Source of the DNA: Parcubacteria group bacterium GW2011_GWA2_43_11
GTDB taxonomy: Bacteria; Patescibacteriota; Minisyncoccia; Phycocordibacterales; UBA12088
DNA length: 39,136 bases
Assembly (NCBI GenBank): GCA_000998805.1
Contig: LCFC01000003.1
Span: 1 to 39,136, forward strand
Direction: 5' to 3'
Every line of letters starts with the position of its first letter. Position 1 is the first letter of the stretch. The notes beneath the pieces were generated by a model, which was not told where the DNA came from, did not search any database, and worked only from the letters and a program-made list of their open reading frames with translations. The position numbers and the translations under genes were made by a program. This document shows, in pieces, positions 11,946-33,567 of the stretch.

Positions 11946-12009
11946 CAAGCCCTGCACCATGTAAGATGCAGGGTACCCTAAACCCCACATGGTTTAAGGG
12001 TGTCTATCG

Positions 12010-12267
12010 TAGGACCTACGCAAGCGGATGCGACCAATTTTTCTTACGACCAAAGGGAGTTAGAAAAATGAAGTACTCTTGTGGTGTAGTTCGAGGCGCG
12101 CAAACAAAATACTACGAGGCGTATTAGGTATACGGTGAGTAGTATTTTGTGTAGCACAACGATGAAATGCGACCAATTTTTCTTATGATTCGCCATTCGC
12201 CATCTGGCGAAGGCGGAGAATTAGAAAAATGAAGTACTCTTGTGGTGCGTCGTTTGCGTAGGTCCTA
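12010..12267. mobile_element. MITE-like element, family 1 copy A, with TIRs and 5-bp target-site duplication
   Basis: TAGGACCTACGCAAGCG ... CGTTTGCGTAGGTCCTA; flanked by TATCG (12005-12009) and TATCG (12268-12272). Confidence 0.75.
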
Positions 12268-12309
12268 TATCGTGAAAACATTGATATACCATGGTAGTAT
12301 TAGGTCCAC

Positions 12310-13776
12310 ATGGGACGATGCGCCACAATTCAAACCGCAACCGCATTTATCCTGCTTGGGGCAACAGGTGATTTGGCTCAAAAGAAACTTTTACCTGCTC
12401 TCATTGATTTATTCGAAAAAGGTGTCCTTCCAAAACATTTTTACATACTCGCCTTCTCAAGAAGTTCTCTTGATACAGCAGGGTATCGAGAATTCGTAAG
12501 AAAACATATTGAAGCAAAAGGTAAGCAGTACACGCAAAAAAATATTGAGGATTTCCTAGAACTTATTGAATACACCCAAGGAAATTTTGATGAACCTGCA
12601 GCATTTGAGCGCACAAAAGAAATCCTAGAAGTCTACGATGAGCGTATCGGCACCTGTTCAAGCAAGCTTTTTTACCTCGCCGTACCTCCACAGTTTTATG
12701 ATACTATTTTTGAACAGTTGGCCAGAGTCAAACTTGAACAAGCATGTATGGTTGGAGATGGGTGGACACGCATCTTGGTTGAAAAGCCTTTCGGTAGCAA
12801 CCTCGAAAACGCCCAGTACCTTGATGAGAAACTAAACAAACTTTTTCACGAAGAACAAATCTATCGTATCGACCACTACCTAGCTAAAAGTGCACTCCAA
12901 AATATCATTGCTTTCCGTTTTTCAAATGTTCTCTTTGAGGATAAGTGGAACAATGAGTATATAGAGGCTGTCTATATTACCCTTTCTGAAACCATCGACG
13001 TCACTACCCGAGGAGCTTTTTTTGACAAAGTTGGTGCACTTAGAGATGTTGGACAAAATCACATTCTTCAAATGCTCACACTCATAGCCATGGACCATCC
13101 AGAAAAGCTTGAAGCTTCAAATCTACGTCAGAAACGCGCAGAGATTTTAGAAGCATTGCGCATACCAACACACAGCGAGAGTGCGACTGATATTGTGAAG
13201 GGGCAATACGAAGGTTACCAGTATGTGAAAGATGTAGAAAAAGCATCAAAAACTGAAACATATTTTTTGGTAAAAGCGTTCCTTGATACACCACGATGGC
13301 AAGGGGTCCCCTTCTATCTAGAGCACGGCAAATCACTTTCAAAAAGCGAAACAGCAATAACGGTGCGATTTCGTTCAGCAAAAAATTGTGTATGCAATGA
13401 GGGAGAAAAACATAACCATCAAAATATTGTCCGCTTCACTATCTCACCGGAACAAAAAATTTCTGTACAATTCTGGGTTCGCAAGCAGGGCCTTAAGTAC
13501 GAATTGCAACCAAGAGAATTGCTCTTTGACCGTACCACGATACCTCAGGAAGACCGAAAACTTATTTCAGACCCATATGAAGAAGTACTTTTTGACGCCC
13601 TTTGTGGCGACCAAACCTTGTTTGTGAGCAACAAAGAACAGCACGCGGCTTGGAAGTACATTACTGCTATACTCGAACTATGGGAGGATGTCGTGCCACT
13701 CTCGTACGCATCTGGAAGTTTTGGACCAGAATCAAATCTTAAAAAAGAGATTGAGGAATCATTATTATTAACGTAA
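12310..13776 (+). CDS. zwf: Glucose-6-phosphate 1-dehydrogenase
   Basis: LLGATGDLAQKKLLPAL; VEKPFGSNLENA; RIDHYLAKSALQNIIAFRFSN; GALRDVGQNHILQMLTLIAM. Confidence 0.95.
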   Translation: MGRCATIQTATAFILLGATGDLAQKKLLPALIDLFEKGVLPKHFYILAFSRSSLDTAGYREFVRKHIEAKGKQYTQKNIEDFLELIEYTQGNFDEPAAFERTKEILEVYDERIGTCSSKLFYLAVPPQFYDTIFEQLARVKLEQACMVGDGWTRILVEKPFGSNLENAQYLDEKLNKLFHEEQIYRIDHYLAKSALQNIIAFRFSNVLFEDKWNNEYIEAVYITLSETIDVTTRGAFFDKVGALRDVGQNHILQMLTLIAMDHPEKLEASNLRQKRAEILEALRIPTHSESATDIVKGQYEGYQYVKDVEKASKTETYFLVKAFLDTPRWQGVPFYLEHGKSLSKSETAITVRFRSAKNCVCNEGEKHNHQNIVRFTISPEQKISVQFWVRKQGLKYELQPRELLFDRTTIPQEDRKLISDPYEEVLFDALCGDQTLFVSNKEQHAAWKYITAILELWEDVVPLSYASGSFGPESNLKKEIEESLLLT

Positions 13777-13779
13777 CAT

Positions 13780-13931
13780 GGGACTTACGCAAACGTATGC
13801 AGTTCGACTTGTCCGCCGTAGCTATAGCGAAGGTGGAGGCGCGCACGCAAAATTCTACGAAACGTATGAAAAATACGGTGAGTAGTATTTTGCGTAGTGC
13901 AACGAAGAAATGCGCCGTTTTCGTAAGTCCC
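13780..13931. mobile_element. MITE-like element, family 1 copy B
   Basis: GGGACTTACGCAAACG ... CGTTTTCGTAAGTCCC; shares TTCGACTTGTCCGCCGTAGC...GCGAAGGTGGAGGCG with copy C. Confidence 0.65.
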
Positions 13932-13942
13932 TAATTGACACT

Positions 13943-15584: not shown

Positions 15585-16434
15585 GATGTTGCTGATATTT
15601 TCTTTGTATCATCTCACAAATTGCACCTGCCACATTAATCTGTGTCACTCTTTCAAAGGTGCGAAATTGCGGGGACATATTTACCTCTATTCGGTAGTAC
15701 ATACCTTCATGCTCCAGTAAATCAACACCAGCAACTGAGAGTCCCGCTACCTGTGTCGCATGTACTGCCAGATCAAGAGCTTGCTGTGGGAGCACCACTG
15801 CCTCTCGTTTTCCTCCAGCACGCACAGTAAGAAAATCTTCACCTTCGTTGTACCGCTTCATCACGCCAAGAGGAATCCCATCAATCACTATAACTCGGAA
15901 ATCAAACCGAATGGGAATATATTTTTGTAACACTACAGGAAAATCAAATTCCTGAATAAAATTATCAAGCTCACCTCTGTTGTGTAGCAACCGCACCTTT
16001 ATCCCCTTACTACCCTCAAGACTTTTAGCAATGATTGGATATTCTACAGCATTGAGTACATTTCGGTGAGAAGAAAAAATAAGCCGGTAGTCCAGAACTG
16101 GTATCCCTTCATCCACTATGGTCGGTGAAAATTTATCAAAATAGGTTGTGTGAGTCGCAAACACGTCTTCAACAATCACTTTATCGTGCTGACGTAGATA
16201 ATTTGCAATAACCGCCATTTCCCTCGCAAGGTCCCCCAAACCACGAAAAAAATACACATCGTACGCAAGAATATCTCTACCATCATTTGCGGTTATCGAA
16301 GTTTGATTGTCAGTAACGGAAAAAACTACATCGGTCGGGGACACCATATCAAGCTGCAAATCTCTCTTTAAAAATTCCTCCTGCAGTCTTGTAGCTGCAT
16401 GACATTTGGTGTTACCCACAAGAAGTGTCCTCAT
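15526..16434 (-). CDS. RimK-like ATP-grasp ligase
   Basis: PIIAKSLEGSKGIKVRLLHNRGEL; VVLQKYIPIRFDFRVIVIDGIPLGVMKRY; YRIEVNMSPQFRTFE; convergent overlap with pgl. Confidence 0.85.
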   Translation of the reverse strand: MRTLLVGNTKCHAATRLQEEFLKRDLQLDMVSPTDVVFSVTDNQTSITANDGRDILAYDVYFFRGLGDLAREMAVIANYLRQHDKVIVEDVFATHTTYFDKFSPTIVDEGIPVLDYRLIFSSHRNVLNAVEYPIIAKSLEGSKGIKVRLLHNRGELDNFIQEFDFPVVLQKYIPIRFDFRVIVIDGIPLGVMKRYNEGEDFLTVRAGGKREAVVLPQQALDLAVHATQVAGLSVAGVDLLEHEGMYYRIEVNMSPQFRTFERVTQINVAGAICEMIQRKYQQHLISVTDLYTDQHASFVVEP

Positions 16435-16558
16435 CCCGTTAGAGACAGCCCCGCCTTGGCGGGACGTCGGTTAAATTAATAATATTGTTTTGCGTGCCAG
16501 CATTCATACTATTCTCTACCGTCAAAATATACCACAAGTCAAGTATCGTCTCTAACGG
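16435..16558. mobile_element. Family 2 non-coding element abutting the ATP-grasp start codon
   Basis: CCCGTTAGAGACAGCCCCGCCTTGGCGGGACGTCGGTTAAATTAATAAT ... GTCTCTAACGG. Confidence 0.65.
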
Positions 16559-17001: not shown

Positions 17002-17760
17002 CTATACTGTACCACGCTTTTTGGTATGGTACGATTTCCATGCATAAAATACCACCGCAGAACTTGAGGCAACGTTCAGAGATTCTACCTCTTTCTCTAT
17101 TGGTATAGAAAGCTGAAAATCACACACTTCTTCCGTTTTTTCACGAAGCCCCCTCCCTTCGTTTCCAAGTACAAACACGGATGGTTTTGTGAATGCTTCG
17201 TCCGGGATACTGGTATCACCATCTCCTGCAAGACCATAAATCCAGAAACCTCGTTCCTTCAAATCACGCAATGTTGTGTTGACGTTTCCTATAGTCACCA
17301 ACGGTATAGCAAACGCCATACCCGCGGAAACTTTTACAACAGTTCCCGTCACCGGTGCTTGTCGATACTCAGGAATCAAAACGCCAGAAATACCAAAAGC
17401 GGCAGCGTTCCGAATCACAGCTCCGACATTATGGGGATCGGTCAGCTCGTTAAGAACGACAAGTGCGGTAGTATCCGTAACTGTAAGACCCTCAATAAAA
17501 GGTTTATAGGGCTTCAGTATTTTATTGGGAGAAACACGAGCCACCACACCTTGGTGTACAGAGTCTTTGCCAACATCTCTTGGAAGATGGTCTTCATCAC
17601 ATCGGTCAAAAGCAACCCCTAGTTCTTCAACCTTCGTTCTGATTTTTTCTGCCTCGCGTCCACCGACAAAGTAAACATGTTGCACAGTCTCTGGTGCTCG
17701 GGTAAGTGCCTCAAAAACAGCGTGCGTACCGAATATATAGGTCTGATCTTTATTTTTCAT
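17002..17760 (-). CDS. SpoU/TrmH family RNA 2'-O-methyltransferase (RlmB-like)
   Basis: YIFGTHAVFEALTRAPETVQHVYFV; LVVLNELTDPHNVGAVIRNAAAFG; VFVLGNEGRGLREKTEEVCDFQLSIPIEKEVESLNVASSSAVVFY. Confidence 0.93.
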   Translation of the reverse strand: MKNKDQTYIFGTHAVFEALTRAPETVQHVYFVGGREAEKIRTKVEELGVAFDRCDEDHLPRDVGKDSVHQGVVARVSPNKILKPYKPFIEGLTVTDTTALVVLNELTDPHNVGAVIRNAAAFGISGVLIPEYRQAPVTGTVVKVSAGMAFAIPLVTIGNVNTTLRDLKERGFWIYGLAGDGDTSIPDEAFTKPSVFVLGNEGRGLREKTEEVCDFQLSIPIEKEVESLNVASSSAVVFYAWKSYHTKKRGTV

Positions 17761-17877
17761 CCCGTTAGAGACAGGTCACGAAGTGACCGTCGATTAGATT
17801 AGTAATGTTTTGTATTTTTATCATATTCTTTATTTTGAAGTACACCTAGAAACATTGCTGTTTTGGTCTTTAACGGG
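17761..17877. mobile_element. Family 2 non-coding element, first of tandem pair
   Basis: CCCGTTAGAGACAGGTCACGAAGTGACCGTCG ... TTTTGGTCTTTAACGGG; left end abuts CAT start codon at 17758-17760; followed by ATTCAT. Confidence 0.75.
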
Positions 17878-17883
17878 ATTCAT

Positions 17884-29621: not shown

Positions 29622-29871
29622 TAGGACCTACACAAACGGCGCACCACCCCAGTACCACAAAGCTTCGCAATGGGTACGGGGCAGGCAAGAGTACTTCATT
29701 TTATACCCAAGGGCACAAGAACCATGCGCACGCGCAGGTAACGCCTTCGGCTAACAAAAATTGGTCGCATTTCGTTGTCAAACTTCACAAAATGTCGTTC
29801 AATGTACGGTGTGTACAGCTCACTCCATTTTGTTCGTTTTCCTAGAACTGCGCTCGCTTGCGTAAGTCCTA
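29622..29871. mobile_element. MITE-like element, family 1 copy D, inverted internal modules
   Basis: TAGGACCTACACAAACGGCGC ... GCGCTCGCTTGCGTAAGTCCTA; internal AGTACTTCATTTTATA and ACAAAAATTGGTCGCATTTCGTTG are reverse complements of copy A modules. Confidence 0.65.
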
Positions 29872-31732: not shown

Positions 31733-32101
31733 ATGAAGCTCACAAGATATTCTGTTTCTACCCTTCTCATCTTTTCAGTTAATGGTATGTTCGTGGTAGC
31801 TGCCTGCTATGCACTCATCTACGCCCAGTGGTCAACATTGTTTATTGTGGCGCAAGGGACCGTCTTAAATTACGCACCATTTTTTCTTGAAAAAAAGTAT
31901 TCCCTTCACACCCCTCGTGAAATTCATGCAAGTATTTCACTTTTTGTATTTGGCTCCTTTATCCTCGGTGAGGTGCAGAACTTTTATAATACGATATGGT
32001 GGTGGGATGCTCTTCTGCACTTTAGTGCTGGATACATGCTCACTGTCATTGCACTCATTATGCTTTCTGTCGTATTTACCTACCGAACGTTTGGTTACTA
32101 A
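31733..32101 (+). pseudogene. Multi-TM membrane protein gene apparently interrupted by an inverted copy of a creD segment
   Basis: MKLTRYSVSTLLIFSVNGMFV...WWWDALLHFSAGYMLTVIALIMLSVVF then 79-bp foreign segment with stop; ASLLASFHGWNYFKKKTKPSALIEKIIRDG may be the displaced 3' end. Confidence 0.55.
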
Positions 32102-32149
32102 AGAAGGATTTGAGGCAACGTGGAATGTGTCTTCTTTTGGAAGGAGTTA
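32071..32149 (+). repeat. 79-bp perfect inverted repeat, copy 1
   Basis: CGTATTTACCTACCGAACGTTTGG...CTTCTTTTGGAAGGAGTTA, reverse complement of 32834-32912. Confidence 0.95.
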
Positions 32150-32268: not shown

Positions 32269-33567
32269 TTATTTCCACAAATTACTACTATCATCAGTTG
32301 CGGAAAGTTTCGGTGCTGTATTGGTAAACCAATCAATGTCTCGAGTGAGGTACATGACACCTGCGATAAGCAAAAAGATGAGGGCCGAACCAAAGAGAAG
32401 GGCGTAATCTTCAAGTTTAAGCACTACATACATAAAACCATAGAGCACACAGAGAAGTGCGGCAACATACCCCGCCCGTGCCCTTTCTTTAAGAATGTTC
32501 ATGCTGTATGTGGTGATGAGTATTATGGTCAGCACGGTTGCAAGTATGTAAGCGTACAAGAATCCAATATGCTCTGTGAGTGACAAGAGAAGGAGATAAA
32601 ACAATGCAAGAGACGCACCAACAAGTAAGTACTGTACGGGATGAAGACGAATCTTGGTTAATGTTTCAAAAAGAAAAAATGCTGTAAATGTGATGAGAAT
32701 AAAAAGTACCGCGTACTTAACGCTTCTGAAAACTTGTGTGTACATGCCTACCCCTTCATAAAGCCCTACCCCAAACTGTGAGTTCATAAGCATGTCTATG
32801 TTTACTCCCCCATCACTTTGCCAGTGTTGCGGATAACTCCTTCCAAAAGAAGACACATTCCACGTTGCCTCAAATCCTTCTTTAGTAACCAAACGTTCGG
32901 TAGGTAAATACGCACCCACAAACTCAGGACTATCCCATACGGAAGATGCTCGTACCACCGTCTCACTTCCTACAGGGACAAATAGAGCACGGTCACTTCC
33001 CTTTACCTCAAGTTCAAAAGAAAATGGATACTCTGTGGCGCTTTTCGACAATGGGACAAACGCATGGACGCCGAAACTTTCAAAAAAATCAACCATAGTC
33101 CCTGGGTAAAATGACGTATTGAGATTGTTCCAAGAAAGAGCCAGTTGTTTTTCAATACTTCGTGTATCTGACAATGAGACGACCAGTTTTGGTTGCACTG
33201 TTAGTAGGTTTTTGGGAATATCCGAGGCAGAGAATGATCCATGTACGGTGATTTTTTCTGTATACACCACAGAATCAAAAATACCTCTGCTTCGAATCTC
33301 AGGAACTAAAAAACTTTCGATTTCCAAATCTTTCGGAAGTACGTACGTAACCAAAGATTCTTTTTCTTTTTGCGGAGTCTCAAACACGAGCACTGGGCCA
33401 AGCATCGTTTGAGAACTCCCCCAACTCTGCGCTATCTCTTGCAGAACTTGTGTGTAACGATGTTCACGTTCCATTACCAAACCAAGCACAAGGTAGCTTG
33501 CAACAAGACAGATAATGGCAATAAAGCCAATGCCAAATAGTTTTTTTGAGACGCTGTGTGTATTCAT
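32269..33567 (-). CDS. creD: CreD-like inner membrane protein
   Basis: ORF 483 aa, likely start MNTHSVSKKLFGIGF; PTERLVTKEGFEATWNVSSFGRSYPQ; C-terminal TM block HPVQYLLVGASLALFYLLLLSLTEHIGFLYAYILA. Confidence 0.88.
   Translation of the reverse strand: MNTHSVSKKLFGIGFIAIICLVASYLVLGLVMEREHRYTQVLQEIAQSWGSSQTMLGPVLVFETPQKEKESLVTYVLPKDLEIESFLVPEIRSRGIFDSVVYTEKITVHGSFSASDIPKNLLTVQPKLVVSLSDTRSIEKQLALSWNNLNTSFYPGTMVDFFESFGVHAFVPLSKSATEYPFSFELEVKGSDRALFVPVGSETVVRASSVWDSPEFVGAYLPTERLVTKEGFEATWNVSSFGRSYPQHWQSDGGVNIDMLMNSQFGVGLYEGVGMYTQVFRSVKYAVLFILITFTAFFLFETLTKIRLHPVQYLLVGASLALFYLLLLSLTEHIGFLYAYILATVLTIILITTYSMNILKERARAGYVAALLCVLYGFMYVVLKLEDYALLFGSALIFLLIAGVMYLTRDIDWFTNTAPKLSATDDSSNLWK
32834..32912 (-). 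repeat. 79-bp perfect inverted repeat, copy 2 (inside creD)
   Basis: Encodes AYLPTERLVTKEGFEATWNVSSFGRSY of CreD. Confidence 0.95.

Follow-up and report, generated by a model that had tools for sequence, protein, structure and literature searches.

What kind of repeat lies at positions 12005-12272 of the window, and what moves it? The window, the whole stretch of DNA that was analysed, is 39,136 nt long and constitutes contig C3 of the Parcubacteria group bacterium GW2011_GWA2_43_11 assembly (G000; a 929-kb genome in 47 contigs, estimated 77% complete). A first-pass annotation had described this repeat, copy A, as a MITE-like element with TIRs and a 5-bp target duplication, belonging to a family whose mobiliser it could not name. 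We confirmed the layout of copy A, in which TATCG and a 17-bp TIR are followed at the other end by the inverted TIR and a second TATCG. The right TIR reads CGTTTGCGTAGGTCCTA on the plus strand and differs from the left one by a single transition. No open reading frame of at least 80 aa lies inside. Copy A is not homogeneous. It is a composite of a 124-nt core and two copies of a separate hairpin of ~56 nt (CGACC...GTGGTG), which we call hairpin A. The further copies that had been placed near 13780, 24569 and 29622 are real. The window copies sit at gene borders, the second of them starting 2 nt past the stop codon that closes the 12310-13776 reading frame. No recognisable 5-bp duplication was seen at the three copies other than copy A. 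The features are as follows.

12005..12009, no strand: target duplication, left copy, TATCG (sequence and flank-pairing statistics)
12010..12026, plus strand: left TIR, TAGGACCTACGCAAGCG (sequence and genome-wide TIR scan)
12031..12086, plus strand: first inserted hairpin A, 56 nt (top-scoring hairpin A copy of the genome)
12087..12169, plus strand: inner part of the 124-nt core, with the GGCGCGC stem of sequence type 1
12170..12247, plus strand: second inserted hairpin A, 78 nt, with enlarged loop (partial model match at 12218-12247)
12251..12267, minus strand: right TIR, TAGGACCTACGCAAACG on the minus strand (sequence and genome-wide TIR scan)
12268..12272, no strand: target duplication, right copy, TATCG (sequence and flank-pairing statistics)
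13779..13932, plus strand: second copy, 154 nt, type 1 core
13808..13837, plus strand: hairpin CTTGTCCGCCGTAGC...GAAGGTGGA, distinct from hairpin A, lying between GTTCGA and GGCGC of the second copy's core
24569..24781, plus strand: third copy, 213 nt, type 2 core
24590-24643 and 24652-24687: inserts of the third copy, hairpin A and a CTTGTCCGCC hairpin, respectively
29622..29871, minus strand: fourth copy, 250 nt, type 3 core, hairpin A interrupted

The TIR consensus TAGGACTTACGCAAACG, with up to 3 mismatches allowed, gave 74 forward and 68 reverse matches in G000, compared with 1 and 0 for a control in which the pattern was read backwards. The copy number is ~70 in G000 and ~48 in its closest relative with many copies, the congeneric MAG Parcubacteria group bacterium GW2011_GWD2_42_14 (G002; 94% complete), where up to 2 mismatches gave 49 and 47 TIR matches. 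Match numbers were at chance level in the remaining four congeners and in four further members of the family, the exact TIR occurred in the window genome only within a 380-genome sample of the phylum, and viral contigs yielded a single, unpaired TIR match. Since high copy number was confined to G000 and G002, the family expanded in one lineage. Pairing of TIRs on the fetched stretches, which cover roughly one third of G000 and one quarter of G002, produced 82 elements (47 and 35, respectively) of 81-321 nt. Their lengths are stepped, with 42 of the 82 at 119-126 nt and longer ones clustering near 180, 210-260 and 276-321 nt, and the core comes in three interior types (10, 20 and 11 of 42). Relatives of the core occur in other families as well (G051, G187, G090). 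Elements with the same TIR were found in G071 (L204, L213, L219), G289 (L202, L211, L220) and G267 (L196, L201), with GTCATTCC...GGAATGAC or GTCTTTGC...GCAAAGAC palindromes as interiors and, in most, a 5-bp duplication. At position 16654 of L112 lies a short remnant with little beyond two TIRs.

Exact 5-bp flank matches were present in 14 of the 82 paired copies, compared with 0.47 expected from re-pairing the flanks and a maximum of 4 in 2000 re-pairings, which bears out the proposed 5-bp duplication. Other match lengths showed no comparable excess. The duplicated sequences include TATCG, TTATG, TGATA, TGAGT, TATCA, TCTTA, TGTTA and, twice, TAACA, and the preferred target is TNNNA (on the left side, T first in 54/82 and A fifth in 42/82). 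Of 23 elements that share these ends but come from cyanobacteria or from other families of the order, 14 had a 5-bp duplication (0.72 expected). An exact duplication survives in just 14 of the 82 paired copies, so most are old. Alignment of flanks revealed G002 loci lacking the element at several G000 sites, for example C8:23816, C47:1836 and C4:20808; flank identity at these empty sites is ~80-90%, too diverged for any single target to be read letter by letter. Short, gene-less, bounded by TIRs and target duplications, dispersed in ~70 copies that the TIR search recovered genome-wide, and missing from corresponding sites of a congener, the elements are MITE-like and non-autonomous, as had been suggested. 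The outcomes named beforehand as refuting this, a lack of further copies and of empty sites, did not materialise. The family is a real and new MITE family and is well supported; it was not found in the literature searched, in which subscription journals were poorly covered.

Shared sites gave a view of how the elements change once in place. One insertion common to both species (G000 C33:9156 and G002 C18:31192) has TGATA on both sides in both, and the G000 copy is 233 nt long with two hairpin-A type inserts while the G002 copy is 156 nt long with a different hairpin. At a second shared site (G000 C23:11767 and G002 C7:27995), G000 has two extra hairpins and the core type also differs. Since the hairpins differ at sites that are shared, their gain, or their exchange among copies, came later than insertion of the element itself. 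Such before-and-after pairs, in which hairpins enter an already inserted element, make hairpin movement open to study. G000 C2:36035 and G002 C12:7075 are also a shared site. The differences in core type or orientation in this pair and at C23:11767/C7:27995 may reflect gene conversion, inversion between TIRs or repeated insertion.

The mobiliser, which had been called unknown, can be named at family level from the ends, the duplication length and the target as IS701, in its ISAba11-like branch. In cyanobacteria and Moraxellaceae, transposases of the IS701 family (NCBIfam NF049921) are bounded by TAGGACYTACGCA ends. Scanning the genome collection for exact matches to TAGGACTTACGCAAACGG returned G002, many Hymenobacter piscis contig ends and several cyanobacteria. 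The H. piscis stretch matches the TIR in 18/18 letters and runs from it into MKVTAQLYGQFLLSSQVNYTGTYLAEHLAG, and among its plasmid-borne relatives are transposases of Nodularia, Nostoc, Acinetobacter and Moraxella. The three that were scanned, from Nodularia, Acinetobacter and Nostoc, match the IS701 family transposase entry NF049921 with E values of 7e-106 to 2e-125. These three IS701_2 elements carry TAGGACTTACGCA at both ends (CAGGACTTACGCA in Nostoc), and in Moraxella and Hymenobacter, where the copies are truncated or lie at contig ends, the TIR stands at one end. A TIR of 13-14 nt is common to the MITE and IS701_2 across four phyla. The Nostoc element has an ATAGT duplication, and a characteristic 5-bp repeat has been reported for ISAba11 (PMC7885321). 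Counting against the assignment, the duplication of the Acinetobacter IS701_2 element, which we do not equate with ISAba11, looks like 4 bp, and 4 bp is the usual IS701 duplication according to a survey of the IS4 family (PMC2266710).

Two patescibacterial homologues, both cut by contig ends or masked, bring the comparison into the same order. G197 has an IS701_2-like gene (N-terminal match, E 1.5e-30) a few tens of bp after TAGGACCTACGCAATC, and TAGGACCTACGCAATCG also ends short elements in G267, G289 and G244. G168 has a multi-copy IS with the TIR TAGTACCTACGCAAA, represented by 18 left ends (TAGTACCTACGCAAAC...MTKTFNLETYTNFLIANGNRY) and 9 right ends that carry the transposase C-terminus. 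Its flanks come from separate contig ends, so that a given left end may belong with any of the right ends; left and right flanks agreed at exactly 5 bp for 8 of 18, compared with 0.55 expected, and for none at 3 or 4 bp. The targets (TCTTA, TAATA, TAATG, TATTA) follow the same TNNNA preference as the MITE. What the MITE has in common with the ISAba11-like branch is the terminal TAGGACTTACGCA, a 5-bp duplication as in ISAba11 and the G168 IS and, with the latter, TNNNA-like targets, whereas the window element is gene-less, 124-321 nt long and unrelated in its interior. Judged by ends, duplication and target, the MITE would be IS701-mobilised, an assignment supported at family level. By such a three-way match an abundant repeat of a reduced, uncultured genome is given a mobiliser family, and the same ends in cyanobacterial and Bacteroidota elements suggest an IS family that crosses phyla.

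We then looked for the transposase itself. As had been stated, the window contains none: contig C3 has no match to PF01797, PF01609 or NF049921. No NF049921-type transposase was found in G000 or G002 as assembled, and no autonomous IS701_2 partner in these two or in 8 other family genomes. The curated NF049921 cut-off was exceeded in 0 of 297 genomes of the order and 0 of 10 of the family, which counts against an IS701 mobiliser. Since G000 is incomplete, the missing partner is not decisive; it may be unassembled or lost. No autonomous copy hid among the unpaired TIRs, each of which was truncated, divergent, deleted or interrupted, and no transposase was found among multi-copy ORFs in ~540 kb of fetched DNA. 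In L093 (G000:C47:1-4000), below 1503, an element adjoining an intact copy is interrupted by a gene that was judged by eye to be IS110-family-like. The MITE copies are non-autonomous and possibly stranded, and the partner IS either lies in the missing part of the genome or has left these copies as relics of a lost or visiting IS.

The best explanation, and in our judgement a highly probable one, is a non-autonomous MITE moved in trans by an IS701-family (ISAba11-like) transposase, with hairpins entering after insertion. A DDE transposase of this family (NF049921), supplied by an IS outside the available assembly, would recognise the ends and act on them in trans. It would carry the 124-nt unit, bounded by TAGGACYTACGCAA ends, to TNNNA targets through presumed excision and copying steps, and filling-in of a cut staggered by 5 nt would leave the 5-bp duplication. 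Short independent hairpins, chiefly hairpin A, would afterwards enter fixed positions of the element and so produce the stepped lengths of 124, ~180, ~210-260 and ~280-320 nt.

The alternative that survives best is that the element is a domesticated structured repeat, an ERIC-like RNA or DNA hairpin under selection for a function in mRNA or the chromosome. All three core types fold as a single long hairpin from end to end, copy A has a fold z-score of -10.7, and the position of the window copies at gene borders would suit such a role. In 12 core representatives, hand-picked to cover the types and used both to derive the structure and to score it, two-sided compensatory changes were found in 23/43 pairs, compared with a mean of 9.0 for shuffled and 4-7 for slid controls. 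Outside the outermost helix, 15 of 20 pairs had two-sided changes, and 95% of alignment cells pair. This covariation reflects either selection on a folded strand or quasi-palindrome correction during replication, which can also create paired changes. The core has no match in Rfam, and the target duplications, the empty sites and an expansion confined to two congeners argue against domestication as the main explanation. We regard it as unlikely, while noting that domestication can be compatible with a transposon origin.

A second alternative is that a DDE transposase of another family, for example an IS1634- or ISH3-like one, moves the MITE and that its ends resemble those of IS701 by chance. 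Duplications of IS1634- and ISH3-like elements are likewise ~5 bp, and DDE_Tnp_1 (PF01609) transposases are resident in G000 and G002, where the IS701_2 gene is not. Three of the resident elements, however, have unrelated inverted repeats (TGTCCGATAAACATTC, CCTGAATCCATAAACT, CCCTGACCCGCCCGC), while at the ends of the remaining two no such TIR was seen. Together with the TIR common to IS701_2 in four phyla, this makes a chance resemblance very improbable. Finally, the idea that a Y1 (IS200/REP-associated) transposase moves the whole element in the form of single-stranded hairpin DNA is scarcely credible: the hairpin shape and the Y1 genes of G000 and G002 would fit, but Y1 elements leave no target duplication, which the clear 5-bp duplication contradicts, and TIR and hairpin A are absent from all Y1 loci examined.

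With an IS701-family transposase as the preferred mobiliser of the MITE, the nested hairpins are the more interesting residue. Hairpin A was found in 34/118 genomes and 27/98 genera, in up to 47 copies and mostly in genomes without the MITE, using a model (R1) that is mostly a sequence model since the RNAalifold structure from the MAFFT alignment misplaced the stem. Of the 47 well-scored copies in G000 and G002, 31 fall within paired elements, usually directly behind an ATG or GTG that in the plain core is followed by CAGTTC or CGCCG. Other hairpins sit between GTTCGA and GGCGC, between GCAACG and AAGAA, or at the foot of hairpin A, and in L039 one hairpin is nested in another. We tentatively suggest, as one possibility, that hairpin A, like several other short palindromes of these genomes, is a mobile unit in its own right. 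Such units would enter hairpins at fixed unpaired positions (after ATG in the core, and at the loop or the foot in other hairpins) with no visible duplication, moved by a non-Y1 activity that recognises folded single strands. Small elements nested in one another have a precedent in BOX, RUP and SPRITE (PMC10969869). An assignment of hairpin A to the REP/RAYT or IS200/IS605 hairpins was not supported, as 8 Y1 loci lacked it and G001 and G004 have hairpin A and no Y1 match. In L049 (G003:C7) a hairpin A lies immediately 3' of an apparent tRNA gene.

Among known systems, RUP of Streptococcus pneumoniae, an intergenic MITE of ~107 bp in ~100 copies, resembles the window family; it was assigned to IS630-Spn1 by matching TIR and target, the logic followed here, and its interinsertion with BOX and SPRITE resembles the nested hairpins (PMC2229807, PMC10969869). 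RUP differs in its TA target duplication and resident IS, compared with 5 bp and no resident IS found here. By analogy, the MITE may work as RUP does with IS630-Spn1, through a different IS family. ERIC/IRU, a near-palindrome of ~127 bp, also lies at gene borders (PMC2229807), a likeness by description, whereas the duplication here is 5 bp and of TNNNA type. MITEAba12 of Acinetobacter (113 bp) was likewise assigned an IS by TIR and duplication length with a dissimilar interior, but its IS and TIR (GGCTTTGTTGCACAAA) are unrelated and its duplication is 9 bp (PMC6382973).

The window holds further repeats. A second family with GTCTCTAACGGGATG / CATCCCGTTAGAGACAG ends occurs at 8364-8393, 8633-8666, 16419-16448, 16525-16558, 17745-17774, 17852-17897 and 18002-18035, and probably represents a further MITE-like family that has a mobiliser of its own. 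The inverted repeat at 32071-32149 and 32834-32912 (79 nt, perfect, arms 684 nt apart), with one arm within a long reading frame, is either a recent inverted duplication or an assembly error. A 300-nt direct repeat of 87% identity (343-642 and 2125-2424) lies within a very long ORF that encodes a protein with long internal repeats.
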